From the NCBI GenBank assembly GCA_937867625.1, contig CALMKR010000144.1, positions 1-33,058 of the forward strand: a DNA stretch of 33,058 bases, given 5' to 3'. The notes below the pieces were generated by a model. It was not told where the DNA came from. It searched no databases and worked only from the letters and a program-made list of their open reading frames with translations. This document shows, in pieces, positions 8,362 to 29,243 of this stretch. Position 1 is the first letter of the stretch. Every line of letters begins with the position of its first letter. Source of the stretch: an uncultured bacterium. GTDB lineage: Bacteria > Patescibacteriota > Minisyncoccia > Phycocordibacterales > UBA918. The position numbers and the translations under genes were made by a program.

Positions 8362-8419
8362 ATCTAACCTTTCATTGTTTGATAACCTTAGTGTACCACG
8401 ACTGCTTATGTTTTGTCAA
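8362..8419 (-). promoter_or_regulatory. Early promoter P3 with shared spacer motif and leader
   Basis: Minus-strand -35 TTGACA (8414-8419), 18-base spacer AAACATAAGCAGTCGTGG, extended -10 TGG-TACACT (-10 at 8390-8395). The spacer and both flanks are nearly identical at 11476-11505 and 29214-29243, and close at 13000-13028. Downstream, 8362-8385 holds the leader with CAATGAAAGGTTAGAT ending at the start codon, also seen at the other two early cassettes. Confidence 0.8.
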
Positions 8420-8420
8420 C

Positions 8421-8450
8421 AATAAAAATAGGGCTGTTTAAGACCCTATT
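8421..8450 (-). terminator. Intrinsic terminator of early cassette 2
   Basis: On the minus strand AATAGGG and CCCTATT form a 7-bp stem around a 10-base loop, followed by TTTATTG. It overlaps the last codons of the 42-aa gene and sits just before promoter P3, so it separates cassette 2 from cassette 3. Confidence 0.75.
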
Positions 8451-8574
8451 GATACGTCACGATATAGCAGGTATTACCTATAGTAGTAAGGTATCTAACA
8501 CCGCTACCTGTAATAAGTGTTTCTAGTGTGGTGTACTTGGTAACGGTGCTGTAGATCTTAATGGATACTCGCAT
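8446..8574 (-). CDS. Hypothetical 42-aa Thr-rich protein
   Basis: ATG 8574 is preceded by AAAGGA at normal spacing. The product (MRVSIKIYSTVTKYTTLETL...) alternates hydrophobic and Thr/Ser residues, suggesting a small beta structure. It is the last gene of cassette 2, with the terminator overlapping its end. No family recognised. Confidence 0.55.
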   Translation of the reverse strand: MRVSIKIYSTVTKYTTLETLITGSGVRYLTTIGNTCYIVTYQ

Positions 8575-8606
8575 ACTATACTTCCTTTATATTAGTTTGT
8601 TAGGGG

Positions 8607-8897
8607 TTAGTCTTCGTCTGATATTTCTTTTATTGGGTTTGAGCTAAGAAAGACGTGACCCCAAGTTCCAACACTGACTCTAGTCTCAAGGCACTGTGTA
8701 CCCTCTGATACATCATAGAACTTGACACTTATATCTCTACCGTCGGTTAAGGCGTGAAATGTTCCCAGTGGTATGTTTTGAATCCTAACGTCTATACCAG
8801 AAGCAAAACTTTCAGCCCCATACTCTTTAACAATCTCTTGCAAGTCTTCGTCAAATTTGTTTATTAAATCTGTAACTTTTTCTAAATCAATACTCAT
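8607..8897 (-). CDS. Hypothetical 96-aa protein
   Basis: An acidic protein, helical at first (IDLEKVTDLINKFDEDLQEI), then beta-like. Its ATG overlaps the preceding stop by one base (TAATG). No recognised domain. Confidence 0.65.
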   Translation of the reverse strand: MSIDLEKVTDLINKFDEDLQEIVKEYGAESFASGIDVRIQNIPLGTFHALTDGRDISVKFYDVSEGTQCLETRVSVGTWGHVFLSSNPIKEISDED

Positions 8898-9094
8898 TAC
8901 TTTCTCTCCATTTCATTTAGGAATACGTCTGATATGTGAAACATCTTTTTAGTGCCCCACTTATTTTCTATGATTGCATACTTGCCGTCTACTGATATTG
9001 CCTGTATCGTGCCTGTGAAGACCTTTCCAAAGAATAGATTGTGCGTATAACCTGATGCTTCTTGTCCGATGTCTACGTAAACTGCTTCTTTCAT
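8897..9094 (-). CDS. Hypothetical 65-aa small beta-barrel-like protein
   Basis: Alternating hydrophobic residues with Gly turns (KVFTGTIQAISVDGKYAIIE, then WGTKKMFHISDVF) resemble an S1/OB- or cold-shock-like barrel strand pattern, so RNA or ssDNA binding is possible. This is by pattern only. A good GGAGGTG-type site precedes the ATG. Confidence 0.62.
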   Translation of the reverse strand: MKEAVYVDIGQEASGYTHNLFFGKVFTGTIQAISVDGKYAIIENKWGTKKMFHISDVFLNEMERK

Positions 9095-9120
9095 CTTTTC
9101 ACCTCCTTTTAATCCTTTAT

Positions 9121-9405
9121 TTACTTAGTAGTTAGTTGTGACTCTATTTTGTCCATGTTGGTGTAGTTGATCTTTTCACGTATGGCTTCAAGTCTGTTCC
9201 ACCTCCGTGTATCTTCCAATATATCTTCAAGCCTATCCTTATCAATGGTTGCTTTTCTTGCCCTCAGTACGTAAACTTGTCCGCCACACTTTTTACAGTC
9301 ACAAAAAAGGTATATCTCACTGTCAAACATCCCTGATATTTCCTGCCAATAGTTTCCGTTTGGACAGTATTCGTATTTGCTGCCTATACTAAACCTTTTC
9401 ATCAT
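9121..9405 (-). CDS. Hypothetical 94-aa protein with zinc-ribbon-like Cys
   Basis: Contains C14 (YEYCPNG) and, near residue 35, FCDCKKCGG, enough cysteines for one zinc site. A long charged helical tail follows (DRLEDILEDTRRWNRLEAIR). Start at ATG-ATG 9405/9402 after AAGGAGAA. No family identified. Confidence 0.65.
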   Translation of the reverse strand: MMKRFSIGSKYEYCPNGNYWQEISGMFDSEIYLFCDCKKCGGQVYVLRARKATIDKDRLEDILEDTRRWNRLEAIREKINYTNMDKIESQLTTK

Positions 9406-9440
9406 TTCTCCTTTTTTAATTATTATCTGCTCTTAGGGGG

Positions 9441-9839
9441 TTAGCTAATTAGCTTGTATTCGTGTTCACCGACTTGGATTTTCTTCGGTACAAAATCTTC
9501 TTGTTTCCACATAGGTCTGTCGTTGTAGTTATGGCGGTAAATTGCTAGTTCAATGAGGTTACAGGCTTCTTGAGAGGGAATAGCGAATCCGCTTCCTGCC
9601 ACCTCTCCGTCATCAGTCATCAAGCCCTTGTAGGTTCTGACTAGCCCTAGCTTCTTCATCGCTTGTATGAAGTCCTTGATGATTTCTGGGGTTACGTCAT
9701 CATCAGTATCTTGGTCAAGTGTTCGATAGTTATGACAATCTTCTGCCCGATAAGAAGAAAACAATGATTCCGCTATCTGAACAGTCTGCTCATTTAAGTG
9801 AGGAACAAAATGTATTAGTTTAACTTCTTCTTTGTTCAT
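9441..9839 (-). CDS. Hypothetical 132-aa protein
   Basis: Soluble and acidic. Residues about 50-72 (TPEIIKDFIQAMKKLGLVRT) read like the last helix and wing of a winged-helix domain, but the first helices are not convincing. It lies directly downstream (in transcription order) of structured RNA element 1. Function unknown. Confidence 0.66.
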   Translation of the reverse strand: MNKEEVKLIHFVPHLNEQTVQIAESLFSSYRAEDCHNYRTLDQDTDDDVTPEIIKDFIQAMKKLGLVRTYKGLMTDDGEVAGSGFAIPSQEACNLIELAIYRHNYNDRPMWKQEDFVPKKIQVGEHEYKLIS

Positions 9840-9882
9840 ATGCTTTCCTTCTTTCTTAATGTGTTATGTATTATCTGCTATA

Positions 9883-10025
9883 GCGTTAGGTAGTAAGTTG
9901 TAGGCGTGGCTTGTGATGACGCCTCGTTGGTCGAGGGTTACCGAATTGAACGGCAATCTTCCTAGCCATCTAGGGTGCTCTAACTTTGAGCTACCCCTCG
10001 CTAGTTCTCCCCTACTACCCAACGC
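9883..10025 (-). ncRNA. Structured RNA element 1, containing a tRNA-like domain with CCA
   Basis: A 143-base gene-free element closed by a 13-bp stem (9883-9895 with 10013-10025, one G-U on the minus strand but A-C on the plus strand, so minus is the RNA strand). Inside, 9928-10000 (minus) reads as a 73-base tRNA-like fold: acceptor CGAGGGG/ACCCTCG (six pairs), TA, D-stem GCTC/GAGC, T-stem TGCCG/CGGTA with T-loop TTCAATT, discriminator A and encoded CCA. The anticodon arm is abnormal: CCTAG/CTAGG capped by only ATGG, with no 7-base loop. A further hairpin AGGCGT...ACGCCT follows. It is unlikely to decode. Confidence 0.62.
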
Positions 10026-10043
10026 AATATAGATAATGTTAAG

Positions 10044-10202
10044 TTACTTCCAAAGTAGGTAGGCGAAAAAAACTAACACTACAGCAATGACTGGCTCAAT
10101 CCACAGATTATCGTCAAGATTACCCATTCTCCATATGAGACTGCCTAGTGTTACTAAGCCTAGAACACCTAAGATTGTTGTTATTACTATTTGTACTTCC
10201 AT
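10044..10202 (-). CDS. Small two-helix membrane protein (52 aa), holin-like
   Basis: Two membrane helices (residues about 4-24 and 36-52) joined by a short loop RMGNLDDNLWIE. An AAAGGAG site precedes ATG 10202. It lies in the same transcript as the membrane-anchored lytic transglycosylase, separated from it by structured RNAs, so a holin or lysis-timing role is possible. Size and hairpin topology are the only evidence. Confidence 0.62.
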   Translation of the reverse strand: MEVQIVITTILGVLGLVTLGSLIWRMGNLDDNLWIEPVIAVVLVFFAYLLWK

Positions 10203-10227
10203 CTTACTTTTCTCCTTTTATTAAGTT

Positions 10228-10379
10228 AGTTGTAGAGGGTGAAGGTGCGGCACTTCGGACTTCTTTCAAACTCATGGGTGCGACCCAATCGAAGCCGATG
10301 CCAGATAGAGTACCGCTAGGCAGAAAACCGTCGAGACATAAGAATCATCTGCGCTTTCTGCCCTTCACCACCTACAACT
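10228..10379 (-). ncRNA. Structured RNA element 3
   Basis: A 152-base element without a credible gene. The ends pair as AGTTGTAG/CTACAACT (8 bp) and, after a small internal loop, GGTGAAGG/CCTTCACC (8 bp). Inside, on the minus strand, GGCAGAAA/TTTCTGCC (8 bp) and GCGGTACT/AGTGCCGC (8 bp with one G-U that would be A-C on the plus strand) form two further arms, with a TGGGT/ACCCA hairpin within the second. The termini share ACAACT-type sequence with elements 1 and 2. Confidence 0.58.
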
Positions 10380-10395
10380 TGTATATATTGTTTCT

Positions 10396-10477
10396 ATTAA
10401 GCGCTTAACCCGACACGTTCCCCTAAAGGACAGAAGTTCTAGCCTCAAACTTCGCCGTGCCGCGTAAAACGCTTAAT
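10396..10477 (-). ncRNA. Structured RNA element 4 (82 nt)
   Basis: A tRNA-sized element closed by ATTAAGCG/CGCTTAAT (8 bp). On the minus strand the inner arms are GGCACG/CGTGTC (one G-U) and hairpin GAAGTT/AACTTC, with a further small TCC/GGA hairpin. It lacks a recognisable T-loop or CCA, so I do not call it a tRNA. Confidence 0.5.
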
Positions 10478-10480
10478 AAT

Positions 10481-10646
10481 GTTCAACTCTATGGTGAAAG
10501 TAGCAAGTTGTAGGCGTTACTACTGGACGCCTCGTTTATGAGCTATCTCTGATGGTCGGAGTCCGAAGACTTTATCCGCACGCAACAGCCCATCATCTGA
10601 CCCTTTGTAGCAGATGCTCTCTTGCTACCTTCATATAGAGTTGAAC
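10481..10646 (-). ncRNA. Structured RNA element 2
   Basis: A 166-base element closed by a 12-bp perfect stem (10481-10492 with 10635-10646), continued by a 5-bp and an 8-bp stem (GTAGCAAG/CTTGCTAC). On the minus strand it contains a CATCTG/CAGATG hairpin, a TGATGG/CCATCA arm enclosing a C(UUCG)G tetraloop hairpin (AGTC-TTCG-GACT), and the AGGCGT/ACGCCT hairpin also present in element 1. Segments such as AGAGCATCTGC..GGGTCAGATG look tRNA-derived, but no complete cloverleaf forms. Confidence 0.58.
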
Positions 10647-10663
10647 TATACTGAATTGTTAAG

Positions 10664-10972
10664 TTACTTGCATGCCCATTCGCCAGCATACCCGTTTGCA
10701 AAAGCCCATGCGGTAACTTCTGCTTGATGTACTGGGTTGTAAATGTCTCTTACGCCGTACGGTGATCTTCCGCCTATTCTGTTCCATGTCTCTGGTAGAT
10801 ATTGGAATAGTCCTGTTGGATTGCCGCCTCCTGCGTAATAGCCATAGTTTACAGCATTAGGGTTTAATGTGCTTTCACACCTCGCCACTCGTACAAGATA
10901 GTCCTCGCTGATACCATGCTTGCTTGCTGCGTCCCGTACTATCTGCTCTACATTTGTAGGCTGTGGCTGCAC
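10664..10972 (-). CDS. Lytic transglycosylase domain (distal part of a probable frameshift fusion)
   Basis: This encodes a small lysozyme-like/transglycosylase domain: VARCESTLNPNA with the catalytic Glu, GLFQYLPETWNRIGG, then a NPVHQAEVTAWAF helix and a final GEWACK. It resembles Rpf/SLT-type domains that cleave peptidoglycan. The nominal GTG start at 10972 has no ribosome site, and the frame stays open upstream to 11101, reading as a Pro/Glu/Thr linker that enters the 11056-11262 gene in the -1 frame. I infer a fusion product of about 199 residues with an N-terminal membrane anchor. See the 11017-11062 feature. Confidence 0.85.
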   Translation of the reverse strand: MQPQPTNVEQIVRDAASKHGISEDYLVRVARCESTLNPNAVNYGYYAGGGNPTGLFQYLPETWNRIGGRSPYGVRDIYNPVHQAEVTAWAFANGYAGEWACK

Positions 10973-11016
10973 AGGAGCTTGTGTGGGCGGTGTTTCTAGT
11001 TTTTCAGGTGCTTGTA

Positions 11017-11062
11017 CCGTCTCGCTTATTTGAGTAGTCTCAGACGGTGTGATAACTACTTT
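11017..11062 (-). promoter_or_regulatory. Candidate -1 frameshift site with downstream hairpin
   Basis: At the end of the membrane gene the mRNA reads GAA-AAG-TAG. A slip of the last tRNA-Lys from AAG to the overlapping AAA (11060-11062) would continue GTA-GTT-ATC into the transglycosylase frame. Eleven bases further, CCGTCT and AGACGG (11042-11047 with 11017-11022) can form a 6-bp hairpin, a usual stimulator. The slip site is an A-AAG type, weaker than the classical heptamer. Confidence 0.5.
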
Positions 11063-11262
11063 TCGAGTTTTGACTGTAGATCTTGTACCTGAGTATATAC
11101 CTCAGACTTGATTGTAGCGTCAAAGTTCGATCGACTGAACCATCCGAAGATGAGTGCGGCGATGATCGTACTAATCCATACAATTGCAATTACTACTGTT
11201 GATACTTTGATTGTCTTAGGTGATGCCTGTGGGCGCTTACCTTCTACTGTTTCTTTAGCCAT
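11056..11262 (-). CDS. Membrane anchor segment of lytic transglycosylase (68 aa to its own stop)
   Basis: A short basic N-terminus (MAKETVEGKRPQASPKT) precedes one membrane helix (about residues 21-43, VVIAIVWISTIIAALIFGWF) and a helical heptad-like tail (ATIKSEVYTQVQDLQSKLEK). Alone it would be a small type-II membrane protein. Joined by -1 frameshift to the next frame it becomes a membrane-tethered peptidoglycan lyase with the enzyme outside the membrane. The start is one base after a 21-aa gene. Confidence 0.78.
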   Translation of the reverse strand: MAKETVEGKRPQASPKTIKVSTVVIAIVWISTIIAALIFGWFSRSNFDATIKSEVYTQVQDLQSKLEK

Positions 11263-11263
11263 A

Positions 11264-11329
11264 CTATTTGACCTCTACTTTTATAATAGTTTTTACCACT
11301 GGTTGTGTGTTGTCTGTAATCGTGAACAT
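11264..11329 (-). CDS. 21-aa peptide, first frame of early cassette 2
   Basis: ATG 11329 has AAGGAAAC upstream. The peptide (MFTITDNTQPVVKTIIKVEV plus K) ends in TAG, one base before the next ATG. It may be a real peptide or a translational leader for the membrane enzyme. Confidence 0.42.
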   Translation of the reverse strand: MFTITDNTQPVVKTIIKVEVK

Positions 11330-11505
11330 TTTGTTTCCTTTGTTTATATTTACTTTATAGATCGTAGCTAAGGGGTTGCTCTCGCTATTGTTTCTATTCG
11401 TTGCGTTCCGAATGTTAGTGCTTGCCTTAGCTTGTGATCTATTCGGTCTAATCTTTCATTGATTGGACTATCTGAAGTATAGCACGACTGCTTATGTTTT
11501 GTCAA
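11330..11505 (-). promoter_or_regulatory. Early promoter P2 with shared spacer motif and decayed leader
   Basis: Minus-strand -35 TTGACA (11500-11505), 18-base spacer AAACATAAGCAGTCGTGC, -10 TATACT (11476-11481) with TGC extension. The -35 contains the TGA stop of the HNH gene. The leader copy at 11447-11461 retains CAATGAAAGATTAGA, but no start codon follows it. The first usable ATG is at 11329, giving a 5' leader of about 140 bases with no gene in it. Confidence 0.78.
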
Positions 11506-11858
11506 GACTTTTTATAGTTTTCTAAACTTTTACTTCCTTTTAGTCCGTTACAGGTGTAGCAGCATGGTCTCAAGTTGCTTGTCTCGTAGCGCAAGCTTGC
11601 GTCGTGTGATCGAGGCACTACGTGGTCGAGCGTTGTCTCGGCTGGCGTGAGCCATTTACCACATAGGTAACACGTATAGTTATCAGCTTTGTTATCATCA
11701 AACCACTTGCGGCGCACGTTCCACCATGTCTGCGCTACTTTACCGTGCTTTGTGATGTGGTAGCTTCTGACTTTTGGATTTTCTTTGCACTGGTAGGCAA
11801 AGTGTCTAGCGGGGTACTCTCCACACCACTTACAGGGCTTTTTTGGTTGCACTGGCAT
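11502..11858 (-). CDS. HNH endonuclease (118 aa)
   Basis: A zinc-stabilised HNH nuclease: CKWCGE near the N-terminus, then CYLCGKWL, the core TLDHVVPRSHDASLRY (DH of the beta-beta-alpha-metal fold) and NLRPCCYTCNGLKGS with the final Cys pair and Asn. Such proteins nick or cut DNA and in phages act in packaging, recombination or homing. It has its own AAGGT site and ATG at 11858 inside a longer overlapping ORF. It ends in the -35 of promoter P2 and is last in cassette 1, beside the ERF annealing protein. Confidence 0.9.
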   Translation of the reverse strand: MPVQPKKPCKWCGEYPARHFAYQCKENPKVRSYHITKHGKVAQTWWNVRRKWFDDNKADNYTCYLCGKWLTPAETTLDHVVPRSHDASLRYETSNLRPCCYTCNGLKGSKSLENYKKS

Positions 11859-11929
11859 ACTGTTTTTACCTTATTCTTTGTTACTTTAATAGGCTTATGG
11901 CATACGAGACATATGCGTTGTATTGGCAT
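11735..11929 (-). CDS. 64-aa zinc-finger-like ORF overlapping the HNH gene
   Basis: Starts at ATG 11929 coupled to the previous stop (TAATG). Residues 1-30 carry CLVC..C.C (MPIQRICLVCHKPIKVTKNK), a plausible small zinc motif. The remaining residues overlap the HNH gene by 124 bases and are Ser/Thr-rich and less convincing. The real product may be short, or ribosomes may shift -1 around the A6 run (AACCAAAAAAGCC) into the HNH frame, but the HNH gene has its own ribosome site. Confidence 0.5.
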   Translation of the reverse strand: MPIQRICLVCHKPIKVTKNKVKTVCQCNQKSPVSGVESTPLDTLPTSAKKIQKSEATTSQSTVK

Positions 11930-12279
11930 TACTCTAGCTTATCTTTGATTTGGTTGATTACTTGTTCCATTTTAACCGTGTAAAACTGAGTGAAGGTGTC
12001 GTACTTCTTCTTGCCTGATTGCTCCCACATAACGTATAGGACGGCTCGGAGGCGCTCAGAGGGTGATTTGCCCATATCGGTGTCAGCGTTAATCTCGGGT
12101 ACTTCTATGTTGCTCTCGGGATTCGGGGTGAAGGTAACATACCCCACTAGCTGTCTGTAGCTGAACAGGGCTGTCATGTCTTCACCGTTTAGCTCCTGTG
12201 TCTCAATACTCAACTTAATAGAGCCGTCTACTCTGGTTTCAATCTTCGCCAGTTGTGCTGGGAATTGTACGGCTTTCAC
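11929..12279 (-). CDS. Hypothetical 116-aa protein following the ERF gene
   Basis: Starts at GTG 12279, sharing a base with the ERF stop (TAGTG). Beta-rich N-terminal half (AKIETRVDGSIKLSIETQEL) and a helical C-terminus (FTQFYTVKMEQVINQIKDKL). In many phages a small partner of this kind follows the annealing protein, so a role in recombination or replication is likely by context only. Confidence 0.7.
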   Translation of the reverse strand: MKAVQFPAQLAKIETRVDGSIKLSIETQELNGEDMTALFSYRQLVGYVTFTPNPESNIEVPEINADTDMGKSPSERLRAVLYVMWEQSGKKKYDTFTQFYTVKMEQVINQIKDKLE

Positions 12280-12878
12280 TACGCCTCGTTCTCTAGCGCA
12301 TCCATCACAAGGTTAGCGTCGTCTATGCTGTCTATAGTCTCCTTGCTTAGTACGCCCTTTATAAATGCTTTCTTACTGTCTACGGTTAAGTAGTCGTGAC
12401 CAACGAGAGTATCGTTAATAACACCCTTAGCTCGCTTTAGTTCATCGGCTTCTGCTTCGTATTGCTCGGCTGCACGATCACGGATGACTGGTGTAGGCTT
12501 TGCCTTCACTTGCTCACCCGCTGCGTCTGCGTCTGCGTCTGTAATCAGTCCGAGCATAGAGCTAAGTGAGTAGCGACGTAGGTATGTGATAGCTGAACCG
12601 AGTACCTGAAAGTCGTTCATCCCTTTAAGCTGTACGCCCTGTGGTATGTCTGCAAACCCTTCGATAGATTCGCCCGACTCTGCGTGGAAGATGATTGTCT
12701 TTACTGTTGTACCGACAAGTGGCTGTGCGTAACCAAGCCCATGCTTTGCAAGTATCGGTTTAATGACATCGTTAATCTCACCGAGGTCTGCAAATGTATA
12801 GCTGTAGCCTTTAGCGTTCTTATAGATGTTTGGTACGTCTTGCTGAAAAGCTGCAAGTGCTTTGTATAGTTCTTTCAT
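12279..12878 (-). CDS. erf: ERF-family single-strand annealing protein
   Basis: A 199-residue recombination protein of the ERF superfamily, which anneals complementary single strands and helps circularise or repair phage DNA. Family hallmarks are the N-terminal LYKALAAFQQDVPNIYKNAK, then YSYTFADLGEINDVIKPILA, and the core MNDFQVLGSAITYLRRYSLS with SSMLGLITDADADA. The C-terminal third is variable and acidic, as usual. Its ATG overlaps the stop of the 30-aa gene (TAATG). Co-transcribed with an HNH nuclease. Confidence 0.95.
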   Translation of the reverse strand: MKELYKALAAFQQDVPNIYKNAKGYSYTFADLGEINDVIKPILAKHGLGYAQPLVGTTVKTIIFHAESGESIEGFADIPQGVQLKGMNDFQVLGSAITYLRRYSLSSMLGLITDADADAAGEQVKAKPTPVIRDRAAEQYEAEADELKRAKGVINDTLVGHDYLTVDSKKAFIKGVLSKETIDSIDDANLVMDALENEA

Positions 12879-12970
12879 TATCGCTCCTCGCTAGGGTAAA
12901 TGTGGTAATCGACACCGTTTTGTGTGCCTAATGGGTATGTACTATAAATGCTGGTTACTGTAATTTTCAT
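12878..12970 (-). CDS. 30-aa leader peptide of early cassette 1
   Basis: The first frame after promoter P1. ATG 12970 follows the shared leader with AAAGGA. The peptide starts MKITVTSIYSTYPLGTQNGV and its TAA overlaps the ERF ATG. An in-frame ATG within the leader (ATGAAAGGATTAGATATG) would add five residues. Probably translated and coupled to erf. Confidence 0.55.
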   Translation of the reverse strand: MKITVTSIYSTYPLGTQNGVDYHIYPSEER

Positions 12971-13028
12971 ATCTAATCCTTTCATTGATTGATGTATCTA
13001 TTATACATGACTGCTTACGTTTTGTCTA
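12971..13028 (-). promoter_or_regulatory. Early promoter P1 with shared spacer motif and leader
   Basis: Minus-strand -35 TAGACA (13023-13028), 17-base spacer AAACGTAAGCAGTCATG, consensus -10 TATAAT (13000-13005). The spacer differs by two substitutions and one missing base from P2/P3. The leader CAATGAAAGGATTAGAT with ribosome site AAAGGA ends at ATG 12970. Divergent from the plus-strand small-RNA promoter at 13040. Confidence 0.8.
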
Positions 13029-13039
13029 GTACTTTACAA

Positions 13040-13068
13040 TTGAAGTTTTCCACTATATTTGGTATACT
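13040..13068 (+). promoter_or_regulatory. Promoter of small RNA unit D
   Basis: TTGAAG (13040-13045), 17-base spacer, TATACT (13063-13068). It faces away from P1, with only 11 bases between the two -35 boxes, so one regulator could control both. Confidence 0.62.
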
Positions 13069-13074
13069 GTTGCC

Positions 13075-13134
13075 AAACACCCTCGTTATATACCTCCACG
13101 TATATCTAGTCTTTCATTGGCGGGGGTGTTTTTC
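13075..13134 (+). ncRNA. Small RNA D, candidate antisense regulator of early leaders
   Basis: About 60 nt. The ends form an 11-bp stem AAACACCCTCG/CGGGGGTGTTT (13075-13085 with 13121-13131, one G-U) followed by a U run, so it also terminates itself. The loop holds an inner hairpin ATATAC/GTATAT whose loop is CUCCAC, then CUAGUCUUUCAUUGG. Positions 13102-13119 can pair without interruption (two G-U) with the ribosome site and start region of the cassette 3 leader (8360-8377), and nearly so with the other two. Alternatively the minus strand here is a further decayed copy of the leader. Confidence 0.6.
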
Positions 13135-13136
13135 TA

Positions 13137-13313
13137 TTGACCTTCTATCATGCTTGTGCTAACATGTAACCATTATCAGGATGCTACTTTAAGTAGACTA
13201 CCCTTCCAGATACGCACCTTTGGCGCAATACTCGCATTACGGCACACCCTCCGCTGTGATGCTACTCGACTAAACCCTCCGTTACTGCTCTACTGCAGCC
13301 AGGAGGGTTTTAC
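13137..13313 (+). ncRNA. Small RNA unit E with promoter and terminator
   Basis: Promoter TTGACC (13137-13142), 17 bases, TGC-TAACAT (13160-13165). The RNA would run from about 13172 to the terminator AAACCCTCC/GGAGGGTTT (9-bp stem, 13272-13280 with 13302-13310) plus TTTT. Inside lies a CACA/TGTG hairpin whose loop CCCUCCGC is also rich in CCUCC. No convincing gene is present: the plus-strand frame crossing it lacks a ribosome site and family. Confidence 0.55.
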
Positions 13314-13317
13314 TTAT

Positions 13318-13423
13318 GGTATAATTAAGTGTTACTTTCGAGTATAGCACCTGTTCGATCAACTCATGTTTTGTTGGTTGATCGCGCATTAGAAGTCCTA
13401 TGGGCTTCTTTTGTTTTATTTTG
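13318..13423 (+). ncRNA. Small RNA unit F with promoter and strong terminator
   Basis: Extended -10 TGG-TATAAT (13320-13325) directly follows unit E's terminator. The RNA has an 8-bp hairpin CGATCAAC/GTTGATCG (13356-13384) and ends at an 8-bp stem AGAAGTCC/GGGCTTCT with a 3-base loop and a long T run (13391-13423). No gene seen. Confidence 0.58.
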
Positions 13424-13472
13424 CTATATGTGGTGGTTGATTCATAACGCTTATGGGTGTATGATTGTAACA

Positions 13473-13504
13473 GTATTTAGCTTTCCTTGTCGGGGGTTAA
13501 ATAC
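13473..13504. repeat. Hairpin with repeated 14-base motif
   Basis: GTATTTA/TAAATAC forms a 7-bp stem (13473-13479 with 13498-13504). The loop contains TAGCTTTCCTTGTC (13478-13491), repeated exactly at 13542-13555. On the minus strand each copy reads GACAAGGAAAGCTA, which contains a Shine-Dalgarno-like AAGGA without a start codon. A weak -10 at 13425 could transcribe it on the plus strand, and the promoter at 13563 on the minus strand. Confidence 0.5.
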
Positions 13505-13562
13505 TAAAAGGTAATAGAAATACCCGCTCTTGCGAACGGGCTAGCTTTCCTTGTCTGTACTC

Positions 13563-14118: not shown

Positions 14119-14204
14119 GTGATATAATAAGCTAGCAACACTGACTAAGCTACCTTCCTGGTAAACAGGTCAAAAAGCAACCCTAGCTAAATACTAGGGT
14201 TTTT
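14119..14204 (+). ncRNA. Small RNA unit A
   Basis: Extended -10 TGA-TATAAT (14123-14128) starts just after the 53-aa stop. The RNA of about 70 nt has a CCTG/CAGG hairpin, then AAAAAGC and the terminator AACCCTAG/CTAGGGTT (14179-14186 with 14194-14201) with TTTTT. It is the first of three consecutive units of the same design. Confidence 0.6.
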
Positions 14205-14271
14205 GCTATAATGAAGTAGTTCTATCGAGGGAAACAAAACAGCACCCACCTTGAAATATAGGTGGGTGTTT
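14205..14271 (+). ncRNA. Small RNA unit B
   Basis: TGC-TATAAT (14207-14212) overlaps the T run of unit A's terminator. The RNA is about 50 nt, with GAGGGAAACAAAACAGC and then the terminator CACCCACCT/AGGTGGGTG (9 bp, 14243-14251 with 14260-14268), followed by a short T run. Confidence 0.58.
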
Positions 14272-14345
14272 GCTATAGTGGAATAGTCCGTCAAGACACA
14301 TTTCGGTAAGACACAAAGCAACCCACGCCTAGTACGTGGGTTTTT
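14272..14345 (+). ncRNA. Small RNA unit C
   Basis: TGC-TATAGT (14274-14279) again follows immediately on the preceding terminator. The RNA is about 60 nt, with AAGACACATTTCGGTAAGAC, then AAAGC and the terminator AACCCACG/CGTGGGTT (14320-14327 with 14335-14342) with TTTTT. Confidence 0.6.
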
Positions 14346-14400
14346 GCTTTACTTGCCGCTCCTGTGTCTAAATATTACACACGAACATTGTGGGACGTTT

Positions 14401-14735: not shown

Positions 14736-14784
14736 GGCGGTCTTTAGGTATCTCTCCGTTCAGGTGGTCGCCCCGTACACGTTT

Positions 14785-15007: not shown

Positions 15008-16253
15008 CGAAAGTCCTGCCTTGATAGTGAATGACACCGTTATGGATTGGCACTTGGTCGAACTGGTACTTGCCGTCGCCGTAGTCGTAAATTACCATCA
15101 CGCCGTTTTGCCAGTTCTCGTGCCTATGTACAGGTTGGTTTTCACCTACAGATGACCAGTAGCTAGGCACTACGCCGTCAGTCCTACAGAGTGCACCGAC
15201 AACAAAAGCACCAAACTGCTTACCCCTGCGAGTTGTCTGGTAGTGGGACTCGATGGAATGCTTGTGTCCTTGTACGATGTTTCGGTCGTTGTTTACCTTA
15301 GATAGCTTTGCGGCGGTGCTTCCGCCAGATACAGCAAACGTCCCATGTATAAATGCGAGATCTTCCTTGTACTCAAACTCAGCAGCAGGGTAGCCGTCTA
15401 TGTACTCCCAGCCAATCTGGTCAAGTCTGAGTAGTCCTGGGTACGAAAGCGCGGCGTGTTTCTCGCCCACTTGCTTTACATTGTATAGTGCAGGAGCGTT
15501 ACGGAGGACGTAATCTGTTAATCGTTTAACGTGATTGCTTGCAACGGTGACACGGCGTTCTGCGTTAGGAGTAACGGCGGTGAACTCTGCAAAGAGGTCA
15601 TGTGTGCGCTGAAGAGAAGGCTGGAGGGTATGCTGGAAGTGGTCTGAATCGACAGGGTGACGTGATAGCTCCGCAAAGTCAGTCGTGTCTGCACAGTCTA
15701 CTACAAAGTCAGGATTAAGATGCTTTGCGAGTTGTAGGGCTGCATCAATTGATTGTTCGTCGTGTATAGGCACTAGCTCGTCGTCTATGCGCCTGTAGCC
15801 TATCTGAGCGTCTGAGAATACGAACAGGACTTTATGATCTCGTACAACGCCTCTAGCACGGCTAGGACGAATGATAGCTGCTTTGACTGGCTCGACTGAT
15901 AGTGTAGACTCGCCAGCCTTTTTACCAAAGTCTACGTGCGGAAGGGGTTTTGTATACTCAATCTCACCGTCTGCGTTACGAATATACCCTACGTGGAAGC
16001 CAGCTCGGTCTGCTTTTGCTAGGTCGTCTCTGGTAAGATTAATGCCAGCCTCTTTAAACGCCTCGGCAAGTCGGTCTAGTTCGTCTTTTTCTCCTTCGCC
16101 GTTTGGTAGCCGTTCCATAACCTCACCCAGTTTCTTTTTATATCGTTGCTTTGCTCTCATTATGCTGCCTTTAGATTGGTCTGCATATAGTAAAATTAAC
16201 TCGTCAATGTCCTTAGTAAGTAAGTTAGCTAAAGCCGCACCCTGCCATTTCAT
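14988..16253 (-). CDS. Metallophosphoesterase-like protein (421 aa)
   Basis: Two parts: a basic N-terminal helix-turn-helix-like region (residues 1-50, IDELILLYADQSKGSIMRAK) and a calcineurin-type phosphoesterase fold from about 140. Visible metal-site motifs are FSDAQIG (D148, with Q150 where the family has His), VDCADTTDF (D186/D189), VASNHVKR (N240-H241), IHGTF (H303) and QGHKHS (H330, H332). Related proteins are common in phages of Gram-positive hosts and may act on nucleic acids or nucleotides. The altered first motif may change metal use. Starts one base after the 16255 gene's stop. Confidence 0.82.
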   Translation of the reverse strand: MKWQGAALANLLTKDIDELILLYADQSKGSIMRAKQRYKKKLGEVMERLPNGEGEKDELDRLAEAFKEAGINLTRDDLAKADRAGFHVGYIRNADGEIEYTKPLPHVDFGKKAGESTLSVEPVKAAIIRPSRARGVVRDHKVLFVFSDAQIGYRRIDDELVPIHDEQSIDAALQLAKHLNPDFVVDCADTTDFAELSRHPVDSDHFQHTLQPSLQRTHDLFAEFTAVTPNAERRVTVASNHVKRLTDYVLRNAPALYNVKQVGEKHAALSYPGLLRLDQIGWEYIDGYPAAEFEYKEDLAFIHGTFAVSGGSTAAKLSKVNNDRNIVQGHKHSIESHYQTTRRGKQFGAFVVGALCRTDGVVPSYWSSVGENQPVHRHENWQNGVMVIYDYGDGKYQFDQVPIHNGVIHYQGRTFGGTQSH

Positions 16254-22977: not shown

Positions 22978-22978
22978 A

Positions 22979-25900
22979 TTATACTCCTTTTATAGTTGCT
23001 TCTTCAATAAGTTTTCTTAAATTACCTGAAACTTGACCAGATACGTCACCAAATGCGTTTAGCTTGTAGTTTTTCTTAGCAGCTTTTCTGCCAGTTGATG
23101 ACTTGGTTGTTTTCTTTGCTGTAGTCTTTTTGGCTTTCGCTTCTTCTTTGGCTGCCTGTTTTTGTTCTTCGGTTAGTTCAATACCATCAAAGTAATCTAC
23201 AGGCTCACCTGCTAGGTATGCTTTTTGTCGAGCTGTAAGTTTTACCTCAGTTAGTTCCGATTTCACGGCACCATAGGCTGTATCATTTGCACGAGTTAAT
23301 ACAGTCTTTTTATCTTCAGCAGACAACATTGCATAACGTGGGTCTTCCATAACTTTTTTCCACTCAGTGGACACTTGTTTTGCAACTTTCTTATTGAGTT
23401 CGAGCATTTGTTTATCATCTAGGAGTGAATCACCGTTAGCGTCTTTGAATGTACTCTTGGTTGCTTGCGTTGGCGTAATACCCTCACCTTGGTCTTGTAG
23501 TGAGCGAAGTTCTGCTGTCATTGGGTTAGTTGCTGTAAGGTCTTTAGACGGCTTGAATGGGTTTATTATCTCGTCAATCATACTGCCTCGTCGTGGGACT
23601 TCATCACCGTAAATGTTTGTTTTAGCTGGCAGTGTTTGGCGTAGACCAGGAATACCAGCAGTTACAGCGTCACCTATACCGTTCATCTCACGCTGTACAG
23701 GGTCGGTTGCACGAGCAGCCGTTCGAACGATGTTAGGTACAACACTACCTGCTGTTTGTTCTGCAAACTTCTCTGCGCTTCGTGTAGGGTCTGTAAGGGC
23801 GTTGATACCACCTGATACACCCTTTAAGAATGACTGCTCTGTAAACGCTTTGCCTGCACCTGCAAGGGCATTTGCATAAGCTGTTTCAGGGTCTTCACCC
23901 TCATTTATAGCGTTTTGGTATTCTGCACCTGCTGCGAGTAAGTTTCCTGCTGGTTGGAAATAGTTGGTAGATAACCATTGATCGCCCACTTTTATAGAAT
24001 AAGGTTGTTTGCCTTCTGCTTCCCATAGATCACGTTCTTTTTTCTCTGTAGGATAGCCAAGTGTCATAGCACCAGAGTTAGCAAGTGCTACACCTGCGCC
24101 AACAAGAGGAATAACCATTGAACCGTTAGCAATAGCCTGTGTCATAGCACGTTGGTCAAACTTCTTAGCTTTAATCTGTTTAACAATCTCCGTAGCCCAT
24201 CCAATAGGTGTTCGTTCAATCATACGAGTTGCGATAGATGATGGGACTCCTGAGAATGGTATGAGGAACTCTGCAATGTCTGCACCAATGCCAGTACCGC
24301 TTTTAAGTTGTGAGGCTCGTCGTCCTAGCTCTGTTTCGTTTTGGAATACAGCATATCGTGCTTCTTTATCTGCTAAGTCCATAGCTTTTGTTTGTGGCTC
24401 GGTAATAAACTGTTTTACAAAGTCTGATTTTGCGCTACCCTTTAGCTTTTGGCGTGAAGCCTCTGTAAGTGCTTGATCGTATAGTGAATTACGAAGTGCT
24501 GCATAGTAAAACGGTTGGTCTTGTGCGCCCATAGTTCTAAATACTGCCTGTGTATAGACTTCAGCAGCTTTACCAAGTGGTTTGTCTGAGTAGTTAATGT
24601 TTCGGACATCGAATTTCTGACTAGGGTTACGTGGGTCATAGCCTGTCTTAAAGTATTTAATACCCTTAACGATTCCCTCACCAGTACCAGACGCAGTTCC
24701 TCTAAGTGTGTACTTACGGCTTCTCTGTCCAGTAAAGAAGAATGCTGTAGCAGCGTCAAGTATGTTAGCAAGTGGGTCTACATAACCTTTTCTAAGAATT
24801 GCCTCAACGATGTTGGCTACTAAGTTTCCTGCGGTAGTACGAGGTGAAGTTAAAAGTCCAGCTTTCCATACTTGTAGTATTTGGCTCATCTTCCTTTGAG
24901 GTAATTGCTTAGCAACGTATTGCATAAGATTATTTCGGGCAAGACCATTTTCGTATGAACCAGCGTCCGTCTTTTTAACCTGTTGAATAAAACTATCGAT
25001 CTTCTTGGTCATTTCAGGGGTAATAGTAACACCCTCTTTTTTGAGTGACTTAATAGCAGAAAAGCGTAAGCCCTCTGGTGTACGGTTTCCAAGGAGTGAA
25101 GCCGCTTGTACCAACTGACCAGCTTTTGAGAACTTCTCCGCTAGTTGTTCGTATATCTCGGTTGCCTCTTGAAGGCTCTTCGTGGTACTGCGAGCGTCTA
25201 GGCGTTTAGCAACTGCGATAGCGTCTGAGGCTGTCTGGTCGTCGATCTTGTCTGCGATCAAGCGGTCTTTAATGTCAGTAGTCGCTTCTTTAAGACTTCG
25301 TGACTTTAAGAACTTATCAGACTGAAATAGTCGTTGCTCATCGGTAACAGTAGTGTATGAACCTTCTTTACCACGCATAGCAGTTCTGAGTTTGTCGCTC
25401 GTTTCGGCTGAACCCTTAACAGTACGTGTAAACTTCGTCTTTGCCTGTCGTGGTGCTGTAATACCTGCTGCCTCTAAGTCTGCGACAATCTGGTTCTCCC
25501 TTTGTAGTGCGAGGGGTTCGTCAATGTATAGTCCACTCTCTGGGTCTGTGCGTGAGATAACTTCTGCACGTTTCTGTATATCTGGGCTATTACGTAACTC
25601 TGTGATTTTCTTGCCTTGTTCTCGTGATGAGGATCGTGCGTCGAGTTCTCTCTTAACGACATCTAGCATGTCTTCACTTGTCATAGTAAGTTGACCGTCA
25701 ACTCTGTTGCCCTCAAATTCTGCTGCAATATCGTCTAATGCCCTGCCGTCTTTTTCAGATAAGTAGCGAGGTGGTATGCCAGACTCACGAGCAGATAGAC
25801 CTGTTACTTCTTTAATACTACTCGGTTTAATCTTTGGTATACCTGCCTCAAACGCACCTGTACTGCCTGATTCAAATAGCAGTGGGTCTGTTTCGTATAC

Positions 25901-27982
25901 TGCTTGGTCTACGGCTTCACGCATCGCTTTGCTTTGTTTTCGGTATGGCGTTAGTCCAGCAGCTTCTAGGTCTGCTTCAAAGGCTGATTTTTGGGTAGTT
26001 GGTTGTTTAGGTGTCTTAGTTACTTGTGGGGCTGAAGCCTCAATATCAAACACAACTAGCTGGTCGTTTGTACCACTAGACGCATCTGCAACTGTCTTTT
26101 TTATTATTATGCCGTCATGCCCTTGTTGCTTTAGGCTATCGGCAAATGCCTTCTTGTTATCAAACTTATCAGCTTCGTACTGGAACACATCGTAACTATC
26201 TTTGAGTTTTATCTTCTCTTCTTTTAATGCGCCGTTAAGTTGGTCTATTTTGTTGGTAAACTCTCTGTCTGTTTGCCAAGAGTAGCCTGATGGGTTGTTG
26301 TTTATTGTTGCATCTTTATACTGTTTTCTCTGTAGCTCTGTTTCTTTAATTTGGTTTTCTATACTTTCAATGTTGCTTCTAACCTGTTTTGCTTGGCTAG
26401 GACTTAACGGTTCGTAGATTTTTGGATTATTTAGTTTTGGTGTAGCTTCAATGACTCTGCCTGTTTTTGACTCTGGATTATTTTTATAGATACTTTCGTA
26501 TGTGAACTTGTCCGCTACGTTTCTGTCGCTACTAAACCAAGTGCCAATACCAGCATTTCTATTTTCTGAGTAGCTAGTCTGATTGTTTTTTAGTGTATCA
26601 AACTTTCTCGGTGTTCCGTGATACCACATCTGGCCTTCTGCTTTACCCCCTGGTACTTGTATAGAACCACGCTCTAGTATTCTGCGTCGTTCGGTATTAA
26701 GTTGTGCGATACCTTGGTTGATCTGTTCACGGCGAGTAGGGTTGGTCTCTACGTCAAAAGCTCTCTTGTAGTTATCAAGAGTTTCGTTTATCTGTGCAAG
26801 TTGTGGGTTGATGTTTTCTACTGCACGAGCTACGTTTTTAGCGCCAGTAGTGGTTGCATCGCCTATAACTTGTCCAGCCTTAATAGTCGCAGGAATAGCA
26901 GCGCCCGTTACAGCTCCGATTGCCGCACCAGTGCCGATACCTGAAGCATAGTCTTGAAGAGTGGCGTCTGCGCCCATCTGTTCTGCCGTACCAGCTCCAC
27001 CGTATGCTGCACCGAGGGTGCTACCTGATACAGCGCCCTGTCTGATTGTCTGTGGGTTAAGCACGGTATTAGTAAAGTTGACAAGCTTAGAGCCTGCCGT
27101 TGCCGTCTGTCCGCCCTTAACTGCTGCACCCACTAGCTTGCTTCCAGCACCAGCGGTAACTACGTCTAGTCCAATGCTTGCTACTGCGCCAGCTGCTTTA
27201 GTGGGGTCTGTACGTTCTGCTACCTGAGTCTGAGTAGCTTCCTGTTGCGCTGATAGGAGGTCGCTCTGTGCTGCTATGTTTGAGATAGCCTGCTTGTAGC
27301 GCTCTTTTGCCACAGGGTCGGCTGTTTTATTCATGTTATCAGTAAGGTTACGAACAGTCTCCGCTACGCCCTGTTGGTAGTCGGCCTGAGCCTTGTCTGC
27401 CTCGCCCTGAACTCCTGCACCGAACACTTCGCCAAAGCCCTCACCGATACGCTTATAGGCTGATGGGGCTGCTGCTACAGCGTCCTGTGCAAAGGTAAGT
27501 GGATTACCGCCCTGCTTCTTGCCGTATGTTTCAATGTTGGCTAGCTGTTGTTGCGCCCAGTCTCGGTTTTTTATATCTTCCTGAGAGTTGAACTTCGTGC
27601 GTCCAGCAAGCCCCTGTAAATCTGCGATGCGCTGTCTCTGTGAGTATACGTCAGAGGTATTAAACTTAGTCACCTCTGGGTCTTTAGTCTCGAAGTACTG
27701 TTTAGTGAGTACGTCTTGATCGAACTTGCTACCACCTGCTGCAAGGTTGCCACGTACTGCGTCTACTTGATTACCTGTCCCTTTTGAGAACTCTTCAATA
27801 GTGATCTTTTGGTTACCGTTATAGAAGTCTGTACCACCGTCTGAGCGTTTCTGTTGGCGGTATGGAGACGTAGAAGCAGGAGCTACAGATTGCTGTGCTG
27901 GCTGAGTAGACGCAACATAAACAGGCTGCTTATACGTCTTGAGTTCTTCTCTGAGGTCTTTTGGATTGAGGCTGTATGCCAT
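22979..27982 (-). CDS. Giant internal virion / polyvalent protein with ART-like domain (1667 aa)
   Basis: The N-terminal 450 residues are Gln/Ala/Gly-rich, with long Gly-Ala segments that could insert in membranes (about 265-380). Residues about 452-650 resemble a mono-ADP-ribosyltransferase of polyvalent proteins: MWYHGTPRKFD, GIGTWFSSDRNVADKF and, at the end, GHDGIIIKK...QLVVFDIEA. Near 737 lies ESGIPPRYLSEKDG, a pattern seen in other large phage polyvalent proteins. Residues about 1040-1420 (SPRTTAGNLVANIV; FLIPFSGVPSSIATRM) match the helical internal region of ejected virion proteins. A Lys-rich segment (about 1610-1640) follows. Likely ejected with DNA and able to modify a host target. 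Confidence 0.84.
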   Translation of the reverse strand: MAYSLNPKDLREELKTYKQPVYVASTQPAQQSVAPASTSPYRQQKRSDGGTDFYNGNQKITIEEFSKGTGNQVDAVRGNLAAGGSKFDQDVLTKQYFETKDPEVTKFNTSDVYSQRQRIADLQGLAGRTKFNSQEDIKNRDWAQQQLANIETYGKKQGGNPLTFAQDAVAAAPSAYKRIGEGFGEVFGAGVQGEADKAQADYQQGVAETVRNLTDNMNKTADPVAKERYKQAISNIAAQSDLLSAQQEATQTQVAERTDPTKAAGAVASIGLDVVTAGAGSKLVGAAVKGGQTATAGSKLVNFTNTVLNPQTIRQGAVSGSTLGAAYGGAGTAEQMGADATLQDYASGIGTGAAIGAVTGAAIPATIKAGQVIGDATTTGAKNVARAVENINPQLAQINETLDNYKRAFDVETNPTRREQINQGIAQLNTERRRILERGSIQVPGGKAEGQMWYHGTPRKFDTLKNNQTSYSENRNAGIGTWFSSDRNVADKFTYESIYKNNPESKTGRVIEATPKLNNPKIYEPLSPSQAKQVRSNIESIENQIKETELQRKQYKDATINNNPSGYSWQTDREFTNKIDQLNGALKEEKIKLKDSYDVFQYEADKFDNKKAFADSLKQQGHDGIIIKKTVADASSGTNDQLVVFDIEASAPQVTKTPKQPTTQKSAFEADLEAAGLTPYRKQSKAMREAVDQAVYETDPLLFESGSTGAFEAGIPKIKPSSIKEVTGLSARESGIPPRYLSEKDGRALDDIAAEFEGNRVDGQLTMTSEDMLDVVKRELDARSSSREQGKKITELRNSPDIQKRAEVISRTDPESGLYIDEPLALQRENQIVADLEAAGITAPRQAKTKFTRTVKGSAETSDKLRTAMRGKEGSYTTVTDEQRLFQSDKFLKSRSLKEATTDIKDRLIADKIDDQTASDAIAVAKRLDARSTTKSLQEATEIYEQLAEKFSKAGQLVQAASLLGNRTPEGLRFSAIKSLKKEGVTITPEMTKKIDSFIQQVKKTDAGSYENGLARNNLMQYVAKQLPQRKMSQILQVWKAGLLTSPRTTAGNLVANIVEAILRKGYVDPLANILDAATAFFFTGQRSRKYTLRGTASGTGEGIVKGIKYFKTGYDPRNPSQKFDVRNINYSDKPLGKAAEVYTQAVFRTMGAQDQPFYYAALRNSLYDQALTEASRQKLKGSAKSDFVKQFITEPQTKAMDLADKEARYAVFQNETELGRRASQLKSGTGIGADIAEFLIPFSGVPSSIATRMIERTPIGWATEIVKQIKAKKFDQRAMTQAIANGSMVIPLVGAGVALANSGAMTLGYPTEKKERDLWEAEGKQPYSIKVGDQWLSTNYFQPAGNLLAAGAEYQNAINEGEDPETAYANALAGAGKAFTEQSFLKGVSGGINALTDPTRSAEKFAEQTAGSVVPNIVRTAARATDPVQREMNGIGDAVTAGIPGLRQTLPAKTNIYGDEVPRRGSMIDEIINPFKPSKDLTATNPMTAELRSLQDQGEGITPTQATKSTFKDANGDSLLDDKQMLELNKKVAKQVSTEWKKVMEDPRYAMLSAEDKKTVLTRANDTAYGAVKSELTEVKLTARQKAYLAGEPVDYFDGIELTEEQKQAAKEEAKAKKTTAKKTTKSSTGRKAAKKNYKLNAFGDVSGQVSGNLRKLIEEATIKGV

Positions 27983-27991
27983 TATGAACCC

Positions 27992-29062
27992 CTAAGCTAA
28001 TGTTTGATCTTCGTTGCGTTTCTTGAGTAGTTGTTCGTATGGTGAGTACGTTGAACCTGTACCTTGGTTGGCGTTGATAGCTGCACGATCAACTGTGTAG
28101 TCTCGTAGGCTTGGTGCGTTTACCTGAACATCTTTAACTGAGTAAGGGGTTACTGAACCACGGAGTAGGTTGTCAATAGCAGTCTCACGGCTTGCAATAT
28201 CATTCGTGTACTGTTGTGAAGCGTTACGAGCTGCACCGTAACCACCGCCCATAATTGAAGCCTTTTCGCGAGCTGCGTTAGCAAGTGCCTCAGAGATTTG
28301 ATTTTGCTGTTCAAGTACACCGCTGCGGAGGCTTGTCTCGCGGCTTCGCTTCTGTTCGGCAAGATCAGCAAGGAGGTTTTCAAAGTCTGTTTTCGCACGG
28401 TTTTCTGAGGTTGCAAGGTCACGGTAGTTTGCGCCATAGTTAGTCAGCACATCGCCACGTTCACCTGATGCCTGGCGAGCGACTGCACCTGGGGCTGCAA
28501 ACTTAAATGCAGATGAGTCTGTACCGCCTGCCATACCGAGACGGCGACGGAGGCTGTCTGCTAGTGTGCGAGCGTTTGTATCTACCTTACCAATAGCGTT
28601 CTGTTTAGCTAGGTCTGTGTCTGAGCGTTTAGTTTGGAAGTCTTCGAGCGCACGTCCGCGAGCTTCGTTCTGGCGTGATGTTTCTTTGTTAAACGAGCTT
28701 TCAAGTGATGCGAGTCCCGTGTCTAGCCCCGATGTAGTACGTCCCATCTGACGGCTATAATTAGCAATGAGGTCGTCTATGTAGGCAACATCTTCTGCTG
28801 AGTAGCTTGAGCCTCCGCCGCCTGTGCTTGTACCTATATTACCACCACCTGTAGTAGTTAAGTTGTCACCAATATCTGTATTTGTTCGTAGGTATGGGAC
28901 TGTCTCTGCTGCTGCTGTATTACGTGCTGCTGCACGTGCTGGCTCATTGTCACCAACACCAGGTATAAGGTCAAGTGATGGCGATTCGACTCCTATACCA
29001 AAGCCAGCAGTTAATGGGTTGGACTTGGCTACGTTTACAATTAAATCCTGCAAAAATGACAT
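27992..29062 (-). CDS. Coiled-coil virion protein (356 aa), probable internal core partner
   Basis: A hydrophobic N-terminus (MSFLQDLIVNVAKSNPLTAG), a Thr/Gly linker (TTTGGGNIGTSTGGGG) and a long Ala/Arg/Glu/Gln helical region (about 95-300: ESSFNKETSRQNEARGRALE and onward). Such helical partners often sit before the giant ejected protein of short-tailed phages. GGAGAAA precedes the ATG, which follows its own promoter. Confidence 0.66.
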   Translation of the reverse strand: MSFLQDLIVNVAKSNPLTAGFGIGVESPSLDLIPGVGDNEPARAAARNTAAAETVPYLRTNTDIGDNLTTTGGGNIGTSTGGGGSSYSAEDVAYIDDLIANYSRQMGRTTSGLDTGLASLESSFNKETSRQNEARGRALEDFQTKRSDTDLAKQNAIGKVDTNARTLADSLRRRLGMAGGTDSSAFKFAAPGAVARQASGERGDVLTNYGANYRDLATSENRAKTDFENLLADLAEQKRSRETSLRSGVLEQQNQISEALANAAREKASIMGGGYGAARNASQQYTNDIASRETAIDNLLRGSVTPYSVKDVQVNAPSLRDYTVDRAAINANQGTGSTYSPYEQLLKKRNEDQTLA

Positions 29063-29128
29063 ATATTTCTCCGTATATAAAAGTTGAGTTGAGTCTCAAT
29101 TCGTAAATACGGTGTCGAGATGACTTCC

Positions 29129-29161
29129 TATATAGGGTAGTCCTCACTTGACGTGTCAAGT
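29129..29161 (-). promoter_or_regulatory. Promoter with palindrome upstream of virion operon
   Basis: Minus-strand TTGACA (29154-29159) with a TATA-rich -10 (TATATA 29129-29134, 18-19 bases away). The -35 lies in a palindrome ACTTGAC-GT-GTCAAGT (29146-29161, 7-bp arms), a likely regulator site. It would drive the coiled-coil, giant and tail genes after the antisense insertion. Confidence 0.58.
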
Positions 29162-29213
29162 TGATTAGTTACAGTGTACCACAGTCTATACCGCATGTGA
29201 ATAGTAATAGTGC

Positions 29214-29243
29214 TTGACAAAACATAAGCAGTCGTGGTAGTGT
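29214..29243 (+). promoter_or_regulatory. Plus-strand promoter P4 with shared spacer motif
   Basis: TTGACA (29214-29219), spacer AAACATAAGCAGTCGTGG, then TAGTGT (29238-29243). The first 26 bases equal those of P3. The -10 is poor (3 of 6), and the A of ATG 29250 lies 7 bases downstream of it, so the mRNA should be leaderless. Unlike P1-P3 the shared leader is missing. Confidence 0.7.

Follow-up and report, generated by a model that had tools for sequence, protein, structure and literature searches.

Phage-specific blocks in the promoter spacers of phages of probably Patescibacteria-like hosts: a putative family of operators

The window (the whole 33,058-nt stretch of DNA analysed) is a contig of a tailed phage and encodes a terminase, an Erf-like annealing protein, an HNH nuclease, a metallophosphoesterase, an endolysin, and a head-tail adaptor (Table 1). 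It is contig C144 of a 1.68-Mb bin with 6.9% contamination. The phage-host link is plausible, because the bin holds a second phage contig (G000:C170, 8 kb) with a 69% identical 666-aa protein (4444-6405), and three of 379 genomes from the phylum, this bin among them, have matches to the structural protein. Other genomes from its genus and family measure 0.6-1.1 Mb, which suggests that the hosts of these phages are probably Patescibacteria-like, small-genome bacteria. No match to the tyrosine integrase (PF00589) or serine resolvase (PF00239) family was found in the window contig and eight related records, which may be fragments, a result also compatible with plasmid-like lysogeny; the phages are probably virulent.

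Table 1. Positions of the window features, and blocks of the related phages.
Sequence	Feature	Position	Strand	Details
Window	Terminase	2354-4107		
Window	WH119, 119-aa winged-helix protein, candidate regulator	7823-8182	-	
Window	First ORF after w1, 59 aa, no assigned function	8182-8361	-	
Window	Promoter w1	8390-8419	-	-35 8414-8419 TTGACA; block 8396-8413 (spacer 18 nt); -10 8390-8395 TACACT
Window	Promoter w2	11476-11505	-	-35 11500-11505 TTGACA; block 11482-11499 (spacer 18 nt); -10 11476-11481 TATACT
Window	Erf-like ssDNA annealing protein, w3 cassette	12279-12878	-	
Window	Promoter w3	13000-13028	-	-35 13023-13028 TAGACA; block 13006-13022, 2 mismatches (spacer 17 nt); -10 13000-13005 TATAAT
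Window	Promoter w4	29214-29243	+	-35 29214-29219 TTGACA; block 29220-29237 (spacer 18 nt); weak -10 29238-29243 TAGTGT
Window	Lone rightward gene, 182 aa, HEYLH (HExxH) motif	29250-29798	+	Start codon begins at 29250
G064	AGCACTAGCA(G/T)GTGTG			Before Erf cassette and before HNH/TM/SLT cassette
G064	CACTAGCACATG version			Before winged-helix cassette
G064	CATTAGCATATG			Before reversed HExxH gene
G065	(T/C)AACACGACT(G/A)TG			Three promoters
G066, G015	Variants of GTAAGCGAA			One G015 site ATAAGCGAA
G067	GCGTAAGCATGTG-like			
G069	CATAAGC			Right side variable
G070	GCATGAGGGGTA			
G083	GCCATATGCGC(TA)			
G084, G086	CCATAAGCGAA			

The 23-mer TTGACAAAACATAAGCAGTCGTG occurs in three exact copies, at 8397-8419(-), 11483-11505(-), and 29214-29236(+), and in a fourth copy at 13006-13028(-) with three mismatches. 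It was absent from 100 dinucleotide shuffles, and its chance expectation is 0. All four copies sit between a -35 and a -10 box. The first-pass annotation had described them as one spacer block shared by three leftward cassettes and a lone rightward gene, and this arrangement is borne out: w1 heads the cassette that encodes the 59-aa protein, the winged-helix protein, a 52-aa protein, and a small KGG protein, w2 the TM-protein/SLT-transglycosylase cassette, and w3 the Erf/HNH cassette. The three exact copies lie where it had placed them, except that its interval 8414-8396 omits most of the -35 box, which begins at 8419. The two mismatches it had counted in the variant copy are those in the spacer, and a third lies in the -35 box (TAGACA). 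The 26-base agreement it had noted between the w1 and w4 copies was also recovered (8394-8419 and 29214-29239).

In the four window promoters the block and the -35 box are nearly invariant and the -10 boxes are variable, and all four blocks have the same orientation relative to transcription. TGn precedes the -10 box in w1, w2, and w4, and w3 has TG without the n; the extended -10 (TGnTATAAT) of host promoters is therefore a feature of the window promoters as well. Nothing alike was found upstream of the four -35 boxes, and the flanks are unrelated. The leader AATGAAAG(G) follows the three leftward copies and is missing from w4. Other promoter-like sites in the window have different spacers without the block, so that the block marks a subset of promoters. 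The rightward gene behind w4, whose product has a hydrophobic N-terminus, starts 7 nt past the -10 box; its homologue in the related phage G064 is likewise reversed, is preceded by a promoter with a G064-type block, and has much the same spacing. These short distances suggest leaderless transcripts from w4 and its G064 counterpart.

Following the genome search proposed in the first-pass annotation, the block was looked for across the bin and seen in the window promoters only. In the rest of the bin, TTGACAAAACATAAGCAGTCGTG was absent at up to three mismatches, a 13-mer core with at most one mismatch turned up twice, matching the control level and each time outside any promoter context, and no other promoter with the block was found. 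At up to three mismatches, the block was found in none of 48 other genomes of the family and in none of 15 terminase relatives. Neither viral_contigs nor genome_contigs contained an exact copy of a 20-base core, a 15-base core matched 49 stretches of viral_contigs exactly (approximately chance level by our own estimate), and a 17-base core had a single three-mismatch match among 12 Erf relatives. The terminase reflected kinship poorly, and useful relatives came via Erf, the 666-aa protein, and the 658-aa protein of G069.

Host promoters were sampled from 15 contigs, five of which were picked for matches to a block-like pattern. They have the extended -10 in common and no block (examples include TGCTATACT), and the block-like pattern occurs in the bin at control level (7 vs 10 in the control). 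On these grounds, and because the window block was found in no other promoter of the bin, a host-wide promoter element was rejected. From comparison of the sequences, the TG(n) that ends most spacers is the extended -10 of the host, and the remainder of the spacer is phage-specific. As a separate observation, two host promoters, at G000:C32:8126-8143(-) (L181) and G000:C77:1425-1442(-) (L182), carry TAGC(A/G)TATATGCTATACT, a near-palindrome across the -10 box; the genes behind them are XRE-like and NUDIX-like, as judged by eye from the translations.

Comparison with related phages, also proposed in the first-pass annotation, revealed spacer blocks at the same place but with other sequences in ten more phages (G064, G065, G066, G067, G069, G070, G083, G084, G086, and G015). 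Each phage has its own asymmetric block of about 12-14 bp in the spacers of 2-5 promoters (Table 1). For example, the G064-type blocks before the Erf, HNH/TM/SLT, and HExxH genes correspond to w3, w2, and w4, respectively. A TAAGC or TAGC core is common to many blocks, and TAAGCGAA lies within the blocks of G084, G086, G015, and G066. Consistent with the earlier description of the window block as non-palindromic, no significant dyad symmetry was detected in any of ten blocks.

Among the 38 sites listed in the 11 phages, a list completed by eye, 13 are inverted with respect to the chosen reference orientation. Both orientations occur in six of the 11 phages (G066, G015, G070, G069, G067, and G083) within promoters that are themselves normally directed; in G067 one further promoter, 12025(-), and the inverted site match loosely. 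The offset of the block varies as well: TAAGC starts 1-6 nt past the -35 box, while the spacer stays at 17-18 nt. Several block promoters have weak -35 boxes (TTGCAA, TTGTAA, TTGCAT). A copy of the G065 block with two mismatches is also present at 15854 on the minus strand of that phage, with no clear -35 box.

The count of 11 phages excludes G081 (a near copy of G064), G068 (the same as G069 at the Erf promoter), G085 (no block promoter), and G087 (one candidate). No block pairs were found in G076-G080, G082, G004, G005, G009, G011, and G014, and no block-type promoters in C170 and G202. Six of these records (G076, G077, G078, G079, G080, and G082) have the 666-aa structural protein in common, at 56-69%, so not every member of the lineage shows the pattern.

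The privacy of the blocks was assessed with promoters chosen by the -35 box, the -10 box, and the ribosome-site leader only, that is, blind to the spacer, and with the last three spacer bases removed. The rule itself (a GAAAGG-like leader, TG near the -10 box) was devised after the first sites were known, and the count leaves out w2 and w4, which the ribosome-site rule fails to pick up. Similarity was local and in either orientation, and phage labels were permuted 10,000 times. In 48 promoters of the 11 phages, spacer similarity was 5.95 within phages and 4.35 between phages, and in 32 promoters of eight phages 6.34 and 4.31, respectively; in both sets none of the 10,000 permutations reached the observed difference. 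The adjacent 17 nt displayed no such within-phage effect, either upstream of the -35 box (z -0.8 for eight phages, 0.2 for 11) or downstream of the -10 box (z 0.9 and 1.5). Scores of at least 8.5 were reached by 26 of the 92 within-phage pairs (same orientation in 17, opposite in 9) and by 31 of the 1036 between-phage pairs; the latter fits the sharing of a block type by some phages. Among a further 83 loci, made up of 72 Erf loci and 11 records, no within-locus pair reached 8.5.

Two close pairs of phages bear on how the spacers evolve. Most long aligned stretches of G064 and G081 agree at about 97-99%. Three of their four promoters have identical spacers; the fourth has two changes, each at a position where the sites within G064 also differ from one another. 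G084 and G086 have 83% nucleotide identity over the 22 kb listed; at the promoter 30408/27666, TTCGCTTATGGTATGCTATATT is identical amid diverged flanks, and at 32898/24744 the -10 box has changed beside an identical spacer. Free drift of the spacer beside stable boxes, which the first-pass annotation had named as evidence against a binding site, was thus not seen. In contrast, different blocks are found in phages that are 86-91% identical in a structural protein; for example, G065 and G083 are 90-91% identical to G069 in the 658-aa protein, and their Erf-type promoter spacers differ. Such conservation in close pairs, together with replacement of the blocks as a set elsewhere, is the behaviour of an operator co-evolving with its regulator. 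A separate observation concerns the Erf-type promoter at 27724 in G064 and 24072 in G081, where promoter and leader are near-identical and the first gene is swapped, as in a cassette replacement at the promoter-leader boundary.

We consider the conserved spacer to be a putative operator of a phage-encoded DNA-binding protein, a repressor of early genes, with a probability of roughly 0.7. The earlier proposal of a control site inside the promoter agrees with the phage-specific blocks, with their both orientations in six of 11 phages, and with the restriction of similarity to the spacer. The sequences show directly that the blocks exist, where they lie, that each phage has its own, that both orientations occur, and that two close pairs conserve them; from this we infer that a protein acts in trans, that it represses and does not activate, when it acts, and which protein it is. 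The freedom of orientation and the sliding offsets speak against both an element contacted by the polymerase and a stereospecific activator, and are in keeping with a repressor that occludes the promoter. Counting against the operator reading are the absence of a dyad, the co-variation result and the pair G069/G083 (both described below), the records without blocks, and the loose matches in G067. A dimeric repressor would usually want dyad symmetry; the protein therefore probably binds as a monomer or in an asymmetric complex.

Under the operator reading, the host RNA polymerase would recognise the -35 box and the extended -10, and a phage protein occupying the 12-14-bp asymmetric block between them would block binding of the polymerase, so that all block promoters of one phage would be silenced jointly. 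Strong early expression of the Erf/HNH recombination, TM-protein/transglycosylase, and winged-helix cassettes would come first, followed by a self-limiting shut-off by the product of one early cassette, the winged-helix protein being the most likely one. The protein would diversify together with the block, leaving close phages with different blocks. As with Cro of lambda, the product of an early operon would act as repressor of early promoters, its own among them; Cro is a small dimer with palindromic operators in a temperate phage.

The first-pass annotation had put forward WH119 as a candidate repressor. The N-terminal fold of this protein is predicted to be winged-helix-like (pLDDT about 93 over residues 1-70), and the best structural matches of residues 1-79 of the model are the BlaI/MecI winged-helix repressors (Z 7.6, rmsd 1.9 over 61 residues), where a Z below 8 may reflect just a common arrangement. 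The operators of BlaI/MecI are dyads, unlike the blocks here. WH119 had no Foldseek match at E 0.001 and no Pfam match above the cut-off, HTH_39 (PF14090) included; the syntenic protein of G065 passes for HTH_39 (27.3 vs 21.3 bits), and those of G064 and G069 do not. Relatives of WH119 are present in G015, G066, G070, G084, and G086, and weakly in G067. A profile search returned those of G015 and G066 only and so missed some, since G084 and G086 also have them; these two were found after the sharing of TAAGCGAA with G015 and G066 had been noticed, and their presumed recognition helix is similar.

A member of one of the winged-helix families was found in 12 of the 14 phage sequences scanned, including all 11 counted phages; none was found in G085 (a 17.8-kb fragment) and G087. 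In nine of the 11 (the window, G064, G065, G066, G015, G070, G069, G067, and G083) the gene belongs to a cassette headed by a block promoter; in G084 and G086 a distance of 2.5-4 kb separates it from the closest block promoter found. In a test of co-variation between the blocks and 29 gene families (45 dependent pairs), the winged helix ranked third (rho 0.24). Moreover, G069 and G083 have similar winged-helix proteins and different blocks. The predicted fold, the block-led cassette, and the relatives in the TAAGCGAA phages thus speak for WH119 as candidate, and the co-variation does not single it out; that the winged helix is the protein acting at the block is a tentative assignment, at somewhat less than even odds.

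A possibility that overlaps the favoured reading, and to which we give rather less weight than to the winged helix, is that the operator system is the same and the regulator is another protein, for instance the small KGG protein or a further small HTH-like protein of the cassette. The KGG protein is encoded in the same cassette as WH119 and has the highest correlation with the blocks (0.43), but this is one of 29 families tested on dependent pairs. The HTH-like protein, of 52-57 aa, adjoins the winged helix in G065, G066, G070, and G083, but was not seen by eye in the cassettes of the window, G064, G069, and G015.

It is unlikely that the block is instead an activator site, at which a spacer-bound phage protein switches the promoters on in a MerR-like manner. 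The block lies where contacts with the polymerase are possible, and the poor -35 boxes of several promoters may need help; three of the four window -35 boxes, however, are perfect TTGACA. MerR-type activators act at a 19-20-bp spacer with a dyad operator, whereas the spacers here are 17-18 nt, without lengthening or dyad, and sliding offsets with both orientations are hard to reconcile with a stereospecific activator.

Still less probable is that the blocks are linkers without a regulatory role, spread by duplication or recombination of promoter and leader and kept alike by gene conversion. The GAAAGG leader in several copies and the swapped first gene behind the near-identical G064/G081 promoter and leader would suit such a history, but the likeness is limited to the spacer, the window flanks are unrelated, w4 is without the leader, and inverted blocks lie within normally oriented promoters. 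Least credible is an element for the host RNA polymerase or a host regulator, since, although the right end of the block is the host's extended -10 and a TAAGC/TAGC core recurs, the window block is found in no other bin promoter, the bin pattern is at control level, and the blocks differ between phages with 86-91% structural-protein identity and occur in both orientations.

Under the operator reading, the system seems to be a switch of a familiar type whose form is unusual and changes quickly. According to the available excerpts of two studies (PMC6550527, PMC9283540), cluster A mycobacteriophages (L5, Bxb1, TipsytheTRex) have asymmetric, phage-specific operators or stoperators of about 13 bp, some in early promoters, and the site consensus diverges along with the repressor among related phages. 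These excerpts describe temperate phages with 20-30 sites that are mostly outside promoters and predominantly in one orientation, reversal abolishing repression. The sites here are likewise asymmetric, phage-specific, and repeated. In contrast to the cluster A sites so described, they number 2-5 listed per phage and lie in promoter spacers (in the window four, all in promoters), both orientations occur in six of 11 phages, and no tyrosine integrase or serine resolvase was found in the phage records examined. The repressor of the cluster A system is a two-domain monomer. Given the one-orientation rule of cluster A, sites that lie either way are an informative contrast.

A second parallel is SPBRE of SPbeta, a repeated promoter element of about 15 bp that, in the available excerpts of PMC10516654, was first spotted in the sequence and later shown to be the site of the repressor MrpR, a tyrosine-recombinase-type protein of a temperate phage. 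Like SPBRE as described there, the blocks are short elements repeated in the promoters of one phage; unlike the MrpR system, the window contig and eight phage records have no PF00589 match. Location in the spacer and versions for each phage are not described in those excerpts.

The comparison turns an oddity of a single genome into a comparative system of 11 phages and 38 listed sites, with an own block in each phage at the same promoter position. In the open-licence literature no paper was found on operators of phages of Patescibacteria-like hosts, and the sites form a first regulatory map for phages probably infecting such hosts. They also raise the question of why probably virulent phages diversify operators like heteroimmune temperate phages. 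One speculative and rather unlikely answer is that the private, orientation-free operator would serve as an immunity code without lysogeny, by which a resident phage silences the early genes of a newcomer with the same block. If this were true, related phages would be under pressure to replace their block along with its regulator, with a structural protein remaining 86-91% alike.

Two further parts of the window are of minor note. The segment 13030-14990 (about 2 kb) has few plausible genes. Terminator-like repeats lie in it at 14171-14210 and 14312-14351 and an inverted repeat at 14403-14430/14706-14733, and it also contains extended -10 promoters without the block. Between the SLT gene and a 132-aa ORF lie three consecutive non-coding stretches on the minus strand (9885-10034, 10222-10371, and 10498-10646); they have no Rfam match, and their predicted folding, with long closing stems, is more stable than that of shuffled sequences (z -4.05, -3.31, and -2.68, respectively).
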